Positions 41,304 through 45,784 of a DNA stretch of 64,000 nt are shown piece after piece. The DNA comes from Streptomyces sp. SKN60 (GTDB taxonomy: Bacteria > Actinomycetota > Actinomycetes > Streptomycetales > Streptomycetaceae): contig NZ_JAHTMW010000008.1 in assembly GCF_026236535.1 (NCBI RefSeq), positions 1 to 64,000 of the forward strand, read 5' to 3'. The translations under genes and the position numbers were made by a program. Numbering within the stretch: position 1 is the stretch's first letter; each line of letters begins with the position of its first letter. Below the pieces are notes generated by a model. It was not told the origin of the DNA and did not search any database. It saw nothing but the letters and a program-made list of their open reading frames with translations.

Positions 41304-42206
41304 TCAACTGACCGGCCTGGCGGGCGGGTTCAGGTCCGCCGCCTGCTCGCGCAGCCAGCCGAGCAGCGTGGCGAGCCGGGGATCGCGCTCCGGCGGGCGC
41401 GGGGTGAGCAGCCCGTAGCCCGTCCCGTCCGGGACGAACCCGTACGGGGCCGCCAACTGGCCCCGTACGAGGTCGTCGTGGACGAGCGCGTACGGGCCGA
41501 CGGCGACGCCGACGCCCGCCACGGCGGCCTGGAGCGCGAGGTAGAAGTGCTCGAAGGTCTGCTCGCCGCGGACGGTGGACGTCTCGCCGGTCAGGCGGTG
41601 CCAGTCGGCCCAGGCGGCCGGCCGGGTGCCGGTGTGCAGCAGGGTGACGGGCTCGCCCGCCCGGAGCCGTTCCACCAGGTCCGGGCGGCACACCGGGCCG
41701 ATCCACTCCTCGAACAGCGGCACTCTGCTCACCCCCTCCGGCACCGGGAAGTCGTCCCGGCGCACGGCCGCGTCGACCGGCTCCCGGGCGAAGTCCACCG
41801 GCCCGCCGCCCGCCGACAGATGGACGGTCAGACCGGGATGGCCCGCCGTGAGGTCCGGCAGGCGCGGGATGAGCCAGCGCATGAGCAGGGTCGGTTCGCA
41901 GGACAGGGCGAGCGGCCCGCCGCCGCGCTCGCGGCCGCCCGAGATCTCCCGGGCCGCCTCCTCCACCAGATCGAGCGCGTCCCGTACGGCGGCGGCGAGC
42001 CGGCGGGCCTGCGGGGTGGGGCGCAGTGCGCGCGGGCCGCGCTCGAACAGCTCCGTGCCGAGCGCCCGCTCCAGGTTCCGCACCTGCCGGCTGACCGCGC
42101 CGTGCGTGACATGGAGCTCTCGCGCGGCCCGGGTCATGCTCGCGTGGCGGACGGTGGCCTCGAAGGGCAGCAGGGTGGTCAGCGGGGGCAGGTCCGGCCG
42201 GGTCAT
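41304..42206 (-). CDS. LysR-family regulator (GcvA-like)
   Basis: 300 residues. N-terminal winged HTH (LPFEATVRHASMTRAARELHVTHGAVSRQVRNLERALGTELFER) and a LysR substrate domain with GcvA-like features (LHTGTRPAAWADWHRL; AAVAGVGVAVGP). Divergent from the acid-sugar kinase operon, its likely target. TAGATT lies 6 nt before the ATG and there is no SD. A TCACA-N5-TGTGA inverted repeat sits just upstream of that -10. Confidence 0.85.
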   Translation of the reverse strand: MTRPDLPPLTTLLPFEATVRHASMTRAARELHVTHGAVSRQVRNLERALGTELFERGPRALRPTPQARRLAAAVRDALDLVEEAAREISGGRERGGGPLALSCEPTLLMRWLIPRLPDLTAGHPGLTVHLSAGGGPVDFAREPVDAAVRRDDFPVPEGVSRVPLFEEWIGPVCRPDLVERLRAGEPVTLLHTGTRPAAWADWHRLTGETSTVRGEQTFEHFYLALQAAVAGVGVAVGPYALVHDDLVRGQLAAPYGFVPDGTGYGLLTPRPPERDPRLATLLGWLREQAADLNPPARPVS

Positions 42207-42395: not shown

Positions 42396-44024
42396 ATGCC
42401 GCCTTCCACCGTCGTCGTCCTCGCCGACGACCTCACCAGCGCCGCCGACGGCGCCGCCCCCTTCCGCCGTGCCGGCCACCGCGCCCTGGTCCTCTTCGAA
42501 CCGCCCGCCCGCCTCGGAGACGGCGTCACGGCCGTCGACCTCGGCACCCGGCTCGCCGCCGGCCCCGACGAGGCCGCGGCCCGGATGCGGCGCGCGGCCG
42601 GGGCGTACGCCGGCGCGGACCTGCTGATCAAGACGGTCGACTCGACCCTGCGCGGCCATGTCGCCGCCGAACTGCGGGCCGCGCTCGCCGGTTCGGGCCG
42701 CCGCGCCGCGATCCTCGCCCCCGCCTTCCCCACCGAGGGCCGTACGACGGTGGCGGGCGTGCAGTACGTGGACGGCGTACGGGTCGACGAGAGCGCCTTC
42801 GCCCGCGACCCCGCGCACCCGGTCCGCACGGCCGACCTCGCCCGGCTCCTCCCGGAAGCCGTACTCCTCGAACCCGGCGCGCTCGCCGAACTGCCCCGAC
42901 TGGTCGCGAAGGGCGGGGTGTTCGTCTGCTCGGCTCGCACCGAGGCCGACCTCGACGCGGTTGTGGCCGCCGTTCCGCGCCCCGAGGAGGTGCTGTGGGT
43001 CGGCTCCCCGGGCCTTGCCGACGCCCTGGCCCGCCACCACCCCCGTACCCCCGCCGCCCCCCGCCCCGAACTCCCGCCCGCCCCCCGTCCCCTGGCCGTC
43101 GTCGGCAGCGCCAACCCCGCCAGCCGCCGCCAGCTCGCCGCCCTGCGCGCCGTGGCCGGCGCCGCCGTCCACACCCCCGAGGAACGCGGCACCGAGCCGG
43201 GCGTACTGCTGCGCGCGCTCGTCGAGGAGGCGCGGCGCACGGTCGCCGAGGGCCGGGCCGACGGCCTCGTCCTCACCGGCGGCGAGACCGCCGCAGCCGT
43301 CCTCGGCGCACTCGGCGCCACCGGCGTCGAGCTGTACGACGAACCGGAACCGGGCATCGCCCGCGGCACGCTGTACGGGGGGCGGCTGCCGGGGACCGTG
43401 GACGAGCGGGCGGACCGGCAGGCCCGGGAGGACCGGGCCGACCGTGAGGATCGGGCGGACCAGGCCGACCGTGAAGACTGGGCGGACAGGGTGGACCGGG
43501 ACGGCCGGGCGGATCGGGAAGACCGAGAGGACCGAGAAGACCGGGCCGACGGTGAAGACCGGGAGGTCCGGGTGGACCCGGCCCGCCGTGAAGACCGGGC
43601 GGACCCGGCGGACCGGGTGGACTGGGAAGACCGAGAAGACCGGGCCGACGGTGAAGACCGGCAGGCCCGGGAGGACCCGGCCGACCGGAAAGTACGCCGA
43701 GCCGGCGGCCGGTCGGCGGGTGAGCCGGACGGTGGGGACCCCGACGCCACCGAAGCGGGCCCCCGCTCCACGGCGACGCCGGACCCTTCCGGCCGCCCCG
43801 GCAACACCAGCCCCTCTGGCTCCTCTGGCTTCTCCAGCCCTCCCGGCTCCTCCGGACCTTCCGCACGCCCCGGCTCCTCCGGCGTCCCCGATTCCTCCGG
43901 CGCCTCCAGCACCTCCGGCCTCCCCAGCACCTCCCGCCTCCCCGTCCTCGTCAAGGCCGGCGGCTTCGGCGACGACGGCACCCTGGTGCGCCTCTCCGCG
44001 CTCCTCGCGGGAGGGGCCCGATGA
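42396..44024 (+). CDS. Four-carbon acid-sugar kinase family protein (DUF1537) with a large repetitive insertion
   Basis: 542 residues. The N-terminal half is a normal OtnK/DtnK-type kinase ([64 protein letters not shown]). The nucleotide-binding half includes [14 protein letters not shown] and [16 protein letters not shown]. From about residue 331 to 513 the normal short linker is replaced by about 105 residues of DR/DRED/ADR repeats and about 75 of Ser/Gly/Pro repeats, after which the conserved end resumes ([20 protein letters not shown]). The frame is intact on both sides. Normal family length is about 400-430. The pathway role is probably D-threonate or D-erythronate phosphorylation. It overlaps pdxA2 by ATGA. 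Confidence 0.85.
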
Positions 44025-45025
44025 CCGGACCCGGCACCGGCGCCCGCCCCATCGCCGTCACCATGGGCGACCCGCACGGCATCGGCCCCGAGATCACCGT
44101 CAGGGCTTGTGCCGACCCCCGGCTGCCCGCCCCCGTTCTCGTCATCGGCGACACCGGCGCCCTCACGCGCGCGTGCCGGGCCACCGGGGTGGACCTTCGG
44201 GTCCGTCCCGTAGGGGACGCGACCGGGGCCGACCGTACGCCCGGCGTCCTGGACGTGCTGCCCACCGGGCCGGAGCTGCCCGAGGACCTGGCCCTCGGCA
44301 CGGTCGCGGCGACCGCGGGCGCGGCCTCCTACGCGTACGTACGGAAGGGCATCGCCCTCGCTCTCGCCGGCCAGGTGCGCGCCCTGACCACCGCGCCGGT
44401 CAACAAGGAGGCCCTGCGCCTCGCCGGCGTCCCGCACCCCGGTCACACCGAGATCCTGGCCGAGCTCACCGGCACCGAGCGCTACGCGATGATGATGGCC
44501 AACGACGAGCTGCGGGTCGTCCTCGTCACCGTCCACCAGGCCCTGCGCGAGGCGATCGACGCGCTCACCGTCGAGCGGGAGCTGGACATCGTCCGGCTCG
44601 CGCATCAGGCACTCGCCCGCCGGATCCCCGGCGGCCGGCCCAGGATCGCCGTCGCCGGTCTCAACCCGCACGCGGGCGAGAACGGTCTCTTCGGCCGCGA
44701 GGACCTCGACGTCATCGCCCCGGCCGTGCGCGCCGCCCGTGCGGAGGGCATCGACGCGAGCGGCCCGTGGCCCGCCGACACCGTCTTTCTGCGCGCCCGC
44801 GCGGGGGAGTTCGACGCGGTCGTCGCCCAGTACCACGACCAGGGTCTGATCCCGGTGAAGTACCTGGGCCTGGAGCACGGCGTCAACATCACCCTCGGCC
44901 TGCCGTTCGTGCGCACCAGCGTCGACCACGGCACCGCCTTCGACCTCGCGGGCACCGGCACCGCCGACCACCGCAGCCTGCTCACCGCCCTGCGCCACGC
45001 CGCCGAACTCACCCCAGAGAGGTAG
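44021..45025 (+). CDS. PdxA2-like 4-phospho-acid dehydrogenase
   Basis: 334 residues with all PdxA family landmarks: AVTMGDPHGIGPEIT at the start, TTAPVNKEAL, GHTEILAELTG (metal His), LNPHAGENGLFG, AQYHDQGLIPVKYLG and DHGTAFDLAGTG. Next to a DUF1537 kinase, PdxA homologues oxidise and decarboxylate D-threonate/D-erythronate 4-phosphate to dihydroxyacetone phosphate rather than make pyridoxal phosphate. Coupled to the kinase by a 4-nt overlap. Gene symbol withheld because pdxA proper may be elsewhere. Confidence 0.88.
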   Translation: MTGPGTGARPIAVTMGDPHGIGPEITVRACADPRLPAPVLVIGDTGALTRACRATGVDLRVRPVGDATGADRTPGVLDVLPTGPELPEDLALGTVAATAGAASYAYVRKGIALALAGQVRALTTAPVNKEALRLAGVPHPGHTEILAELTGTERYAMMMANDELRVVLVTVHQALREAIDALTVERELDIVRLAHQALARRIPGGRPRIAVAGLNPHAGENGLFGREDLDVIAPAVRAARAEGIDASGPWPADTVFLRARAGEFDAVVAQYHDQGLIPVKYLGLEHGVNITLGLPFVRTSVDHGTAFDLAGTGTADHRSLLTALRHAAELTPER

Positions 45026-45037
45026 GCCCTCAAGCCC

Positions 45038-45784
45038 ATGGACTTCGTCTTCATGCTCACCCGGGACGACCGGACCGTCACCGACTGCCTGCACGTCCTG
45101 GACTCCGTCCGCGACCTCGGCATCACCCACATCGGCTTCAAGGACGTCGGCGTGGACCCCGCGACCCTGCACCGCCTCCACGCACAGATCCGGGAGCTCG
45201 GCGCCGCCAGTTACCTGGAGGTCGTGTCGACCACCCGCGAGCAGGCCCTCGACTCGGTCCGGGCCGCCGTCGACCTCGGCGTGGACTGGCTGATGGGCGG
45301 CACCTGGGTCGACGAGACCCTCGACCTGCTCGCCGGCACCCCGGTCCGCTACCTCCCCTTCGTCGGCGAACCGATCGGTCACCCCACCCGCCTGGCCGGC
45401 GACCCGGCCCGGATCGCCGCCGACTGCCGCCGCGCCGAGGCGGCGGGCTGCGCGGGCGTCGACCTGCTCGCCCACCGCGCCACCGAGGCCGCCCCGCTCG
45501 ACCTGGTGCGGGCCGCCCGCGCGGCGACCACCGGCCGAATCGTCGTCGCGGGCTCGGTGACCACCGACGCGCAGATCCACGCGCTCGCCGAGGCCGGCGC
45601 CGACGCCTTCACGGTCGGTTCGGCGGCCTTCGCGGGCACCGTCCGGCCCGCCGCCGGCGGACTCGCCGCGCAGCTCACGGCGGTGCTCGCGGCCGCCGGC
45701 CGGCCCACCCGGCGCGGGGGCGGCGCGGGGCCGCGGGACGAGCGGGCGGGGCAGCTCCGCGACCCCCTTACCCTTGAGGGATGA
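45038..45784 (+). CDS. TIM-barrel protein of unknown function in the acid-sugar operon
   Basis: 248 residues that read as a (beta/alpha)8 barrel: [73 protein letters not shown]. The last two strands carry the Gly-rich phosphate-binding loops of HisA/NanE/ThiE-type barrels, so the ligand is likely a phosphate ester. The 25-residue tail is charged and irregular. Twelve nt after pdxA2 and overlapping miaB by ATGA. I do not know a described member; a phosphosugar isomerase or aldolase is the best guess. Confidence 0.7.

Follow-up and report, generated by a model that had tools for sequence, protein, structure and literature searches.

A 180-residue insertion of in-frame 9-bp repeats before the KAGGFG motif of a DUF1537-type kinase in Streptomyces sp. 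SKN60

The kinase locus and the anatomy of the insertion

The window, i.e. the whole stretch of 64,000 nucleotides analysed here, carries on its plus strand (42396..44024) the gene for a DUF1537-type, four-carbon-acid-sugar-kinase-like protein of 542 amino acids. Pfam identifies an SBD_N domain (PF07005; residues 7-211, E 7.4e-38, 131 bits with a cut-off of 25) and an NBD_C domain (PF17042; residues 273-327, E 1.1e-11, 46 bits with a cut-off of 28.3). The NBD_C alignment covers only positions 95-148 of the 168 in the profile, so that the match stops at the insertion described below. Domains, fold and motifs are common to the window kinase and the known DUF1537 four-carbon acid sugar kinases (PF07005 plus PF17042; PDB 4xfr/4xg0, 4xfm/4xgj, 5dmh, 3dqq, 1yzy). 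The conserved motifs of the family (31 protein letters) are present as invariant columns of alignment A1, including KAGGFG (residues 520-525, 43953..43970, plus strand). The activity predicted from family membership would be the ATP-dependent phosphorylation of a C4 sugar acid. In contrast to its known relatives, the window kinase stays below NCBIfam equivalog cut-offs; it scores 153.1 bits with the D-threonate kinase model NF047819 (curated cut-off 450), and this score may have been lowered by the insertion.

The start of a PdxA-family dehydrogenase gene (44021..45025, plus strand; PF04166, E 1.9e-105) overlaps the kinase stop codon (ATGA), and the adjoining position of this gene is a further likeness to the known family. 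It is followed by a third gene, TIM-barrel-like by weak His_biosynth and IMPDH matches (45038..45784, plus strand). A LysR-type regulator (41304..42206, minus strand; PF03466 and PF00126) is divergent from the kinase.

About 180 extra residues (residues ~333-512, ~43392..43931, plus strand) sit in the kinase between flanking segments of 10 and 12 protein letters, where they replace a turn of a few residues, as read from alignments A1 and A2, from motif spacing and from the model's secondary structure. The reading frame stays open through the whole repeat tract, and frame and flanks are intact, as the original prediction had claimed. Since an R-L-P triplet stands at both edges, the exact boundary of the insertion is ambiguous.

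The insertion consists of two neighbouring in-frame 9-bp tandem arrays. The first (43410..43697, plus strand; TRF row 43393-43688) comprises 32 consecutive imperfect units with the consensus GAG/GCG-GAC-CGG, encoding [E/A/V]-D-R, the last of which is degenerate. The 11-bp unit originally proposed (gaccgggcgga) has to be replaced by this 9-bp unit, G[A/C]G GAC CGG. A higher-order 99-bp (11-unit) duplication is superimposed on the array (43494..43682, plus strand; TRF, 1.9 copies, 86% match). The encoded charged tract of 112 residues contains 29 D, 15 E, 28 R and 1 K and is thus 65% charged. A linker of ~35 residues separates it from the second array (~43794..43931, plus strand; TRF 43813-43919 and 43834-43943), in which SSG-type units encode ~46 S/G/P residues predicted to be disordered, and not the ~75 residues of Ser/Gly/Pro repeats described at first. 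The SSG-type array keeps its 9-bp phase where it passes into the native Leu-Pro-Val codons. The arrays are far beyond chance: their TRF scores are the highest in 344 kb of the contig, except for a 276-bp array at the window's edge (3-1906; 6.9 copies, 79% match), which we presume to belong to a multi-repeat sensor protein. In-frame 9-bp minisatellite expansions in coding sequence likewise show tandem units whose lengths are multiples of three, together with a higher-order duplication; compared with them the insertion is unusually long.

A draft genome of 83 contigs and a repetitive, GC-rich stretch would invite an assembly or sequencing artefact, which the original prediction had named as a possible refutation. 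The longest exact repeat inside the insertion, however, is only 33 bp, which makes an assembly error unlikely; moreover, the units have diverged, the frame is kept over ~540 bp, and novel diverged units are not a product of assembly errors. We regard an artefact as extremely improbable.

Several other readings of the tract were rejected. In the SKN60 genome the unit pattern, with at most 3 mismatches allowed, is found 138 times versus 46 times for a reversed control; these are short matches at scattered places along with a few short arrays, with no second copy of the long array among the places listed, and a dispersed mobile repeat was dismissed. One place (L077, C8:204951-205016) holds a second in-frame 9-bp array, which codes for Asp-Gln-Glu repeats and precedes HGDLHCEN, a motif in a protein that matches TCAD9 and APH. 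In other genomes only one of five tract matches (L017, among L017-L021) is a clear repeat by unit pattern (RAD units), and all five were treated as matches of composition. A collagen-like Gly-X-Y open frame on the minus strand (43273-43866), antisense to the charged array, was set aside as a by-product of the 9-bp unit. A function at the RNA level was likewise rejected (folding z-score -0.60, with 24 of 100 shuffled sequences folding equally well), and a search for an inverted repeat found no hairpin between the purine-rich and the pyrimidine-rich array.

The insertion site and the enzyme core in homologues

The window kinase counts 205 residues from EPG up to and including KAGGFG, whereas the same reading gives 22-25 in 36 distinct homologues: 25 (14 named, L002-L015, and 11 from genus genomes, L043-L053) plus 11 more. 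These include the closest relatives, with 78% identical cores. The repeat insertion before KAGGFG is thereby confirmed, and the alignment of Streptomyces kinases proposed with the original prediction shows residues absent from all homologues read, not conserved throughout the DUF1537 proteins. In one further kinase (L101/G401) the pattern missed the spacing, and the alignment contains no insertion of at least 10 residues at the KAGGFG site. Distant paralogues stand outside the count of 36; the pattern read two of 23 loci, both with a spacing of 24, and a further paralogue (L031) gave 20. Core DNA of the kinase gene is patchy in the genus, being matched in 23 of 392 genomes, SKN60 included (E <= 1e-40). 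Among the homologues read the insertion is private to the window kinase. Among the papers listed in literature searches, none describes such an insertion in the family.

A tree built from 26 Streptomyces kinases places the window kinase with those of S. roseicoloratus, G326 and G399 (support 100/99), and all three sisters lack the insertion. An addition of 180 residues beside a conserved motif, found in none of the 36 homologues, is unusual enough to suggest a dead or dying kinase whose tract marks relaxed constraint. The core speaks against this. Of 69 columns without variation among the 14 other members of A1, the window kinase departs at one, and of 135 such columns among the 13 other members of A2 at three; both counts lie inside the leave-one-out range of the other rows (0-4 departures). 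NG86 distances to the three sisters (dN 0.16-0.17, dS 0.38-0.46) resemble those among the sisters themselves (dN 0.18-0.21, dS 0.44-0.57), and its terminal branch (0.15 versus 0.19-0.25) is the shortest of the clade. Because the window kinase resembles its sisters in core invariants, dN/dS and branch length, the kinase core is, by every sequence test run, intact and not decaying. The open reading frame also overlaps an intact PdxA gene, and loss of the enzyme strikes us as quite improbable.

Low-complexity expansion of the kinase gene as such is, judging from these alignments, not private. S. roseicoloratus (L002) carries a 16-residue Pro/Ala-rich insertion in the loop at residue 37, and G401 one of 12 residues near the same residue. 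A very close relative (L126/G399) carries 46 Glu/Pro/Asp-rich (EP/DP-rich) residues at window-residue 160. In L139/G057, 44 Gly-rich residues near window-residue 256 are built on a 30-bp tandem repeat, and one of two kinase paralogues in G362 (L128) has a 68-residue Arg/Pro/Asp-rich repeat stretch near its C-terminus. The window insertion itself remains singular, yet expansion is less singular than originally claimed, because close relatives carry low-complexity inserts in other loops.

Insertions of at least 10 residues are found in six of 26 kinases versus three of 63 neighbouring genes (LysR 1/17, PdxA 1/17, TIM 1/17, MiaB 0/12; Fisher p 0.017), a comparison in which the window was picked for its insertion and one of the six insertions, that of L128, is C-terminal; without the window the counts are 5/25 and 3/58 (p 0.05). 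This excess is suggestive only, a lead and not a result, because the kinase evolves faster than its operon neighbours. Tandem arrays are not significantly enriched in kinases over neighbours (7/26 versus 7/63 genes, Fisher p 0.11).

The gene order around the kinase varies. PdxA and TIM genes were not found in the fetched stretch of nine kinase loci (L002, L123, L124, L125, L127, L130, L131, L132 and L137), an absence that is less certain for L131 and L137, which lie near contig ends. In L002 a MiaB homologue stands closely 3' of the kinase. A 17-bp tandem array of 17.6 copies adjoins the LysR gene in G326 (L122, 8142-8440).

Predicted structure of the tract and tests for selection on its sequence

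AlphaFold2 (AF2), run with a 15-row alignment, returned a confident DUF1537 fold (mean pLDDT 76.8; core mostly above 80; residues 390-512 below 50). DSSP of this model, a fold model having been among the checks first suggested, puts the insertion between strands 321-327 and 516-520, i.e. in the turn just before KAGGFG. The original prediction spoke of a tract in the middle of a catalytic fold; by this model it occupies a turn between strands and does not lie buried within the catalytic core. Foldseek recovered the family fold with eight PDB matches at E <= 0.001, six of them titled DUF1537 and two being chains of 3dqq, whose title reads putative tRNA synthase and whose sequence matches the kinase as well. 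The global rmsd of these matches spans 4.1-17.4, which points to a poor match of the domain arrangement in some of them.

A disordered scaffold was among the options first offered. Disorder holds in prediction for ~125 residues of the insertion, while ~50 charged residues are predicted to be helical in two AF2 runs. In the full-length model a single long alpha-helix spans residues 337-386 (43404..43553, plus strand), with pLDDT of 81-88 in 10-residue blocks over 341-380 and of 57 and 68 at the ends. When the 116-residue tract was modelled in isolation and without an alignment, its residues 3-53 (335-385 of the protein) were helical again (block pLDDT 76-95). AF2 tends to predict charged repeats as helical, and such predictions can mislead.

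As modelled, the tract resembles a single alpha-helix (SAH) domain in its high charge, its alternating acidic and basic residues and its long predicted lone helix, which is found both in the full-length protein (337-386) and in the isolated tract (3-53). It differs from SAH domains in that its main acid is Asp and not Glu, Lys is nearly absent, part of it has no predicted helix, and it lies in a loop and not between domains. According to PMC5347031, natural SAHs are rich in Arg, Glu and Lys, a composition from which the tract departs.

A functional arm is conceivable, in which a charged single alpha-helix and a disordered tether would position the kinase, e.g. towards its PdxA-family partner, or contact nucleic acid or other proteins. 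The helix, of fair to high confidence in both runs including the one without an alignment, and the 65% of charged residues agree with such a role. So does the distribution of differences among the 32 units: by codon position they number 9/13/28 and are concentrated at third positions (p 0.0024), which could reflect selection on the encoded peptide. This excess is weaker without the duplicated copy (p 0.02) and on distinct units (p 0.085), and when synonymous and non-synonymous differences are counted by the same method in each of the six frames, the coding frame (14:31) does not stand out, two others giving 16:31 and 15:33. As the frame tests conflict, we do not claim frame-specific selection on the tract. 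The charges are also better mixed than in shuffled tracts (1.4% of 2000 shuffles are as low); a 3-residue repeat, however, yields such mixing automatically. Besides the frame controls and the ease with which AF2 predicts charged helices, it speaks against a functional arm that the insertion is absent from all homologues read, including two (L122/G326 and L126/G399) that retain the LysR, kinase, PdxA and TIM genes. Tolerated expansion, protein contact and disordered scaffold, the alternatives offered originally, all hold up as candidates; a functional arm appears to us rather unlikely.

A probable origin by tolerated slippage

We consider it probable that the insertion represents the tolerated growth, driven by slippage, of a permissive hairpin at the surface of a kinase whose function is predicted to be kept. 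A surface turn before KAGGFG would have grown through successive in-frame tandem duplications of 9 bp and later through the 99-bp duplication, accompanied by point divergence. The product would be an arm of ~180 residues with a charged D/R/E/A part, the first half of which is probably helical, and a disordered S/G/P return. Growth from a solvent-facing hairpin in multiples of three would leave both the fold and the downstream gene coupled to the kinase intact, and the arm may have been tolerated, and be near-neutral, for this reason. The spacing, the 9-bp and 99-bp architecture, the conservation of the core, the placement in the AF2 model and the inserts in other loops of relatives all support tolerated slippage, whereas the third-position excess and the charge mixing beyond that of shuffles were counted against it. 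In S. roseicoloratus R-L-P occurs twice in succession in the native loop, and a 9-bp duplication of this triplet is an attractive guess for the seed of the expansion.

A wider scenario, which we put forward tentatively and hold to be doubtful at present, sees this kinase lineage as a natural laboratory of loop insertion. Surface loops would repeatedly grow by slippage, and in the window kinase such growth would have yielded a new charged helical arm, a young element caught early while close relatives keep the unexpanded state. If this is right, relatives with an unexpanded loop stand beside a repeat-born arm of 180 residues in an otherwise equally constrained enzyme, which makes a clean case. 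One could then test directly whether a permissive hairpin can gain new structure, here a charged helix, from repeat expansion without catalytic cost, and also which loops of the DUF1537 fold accept insertions.
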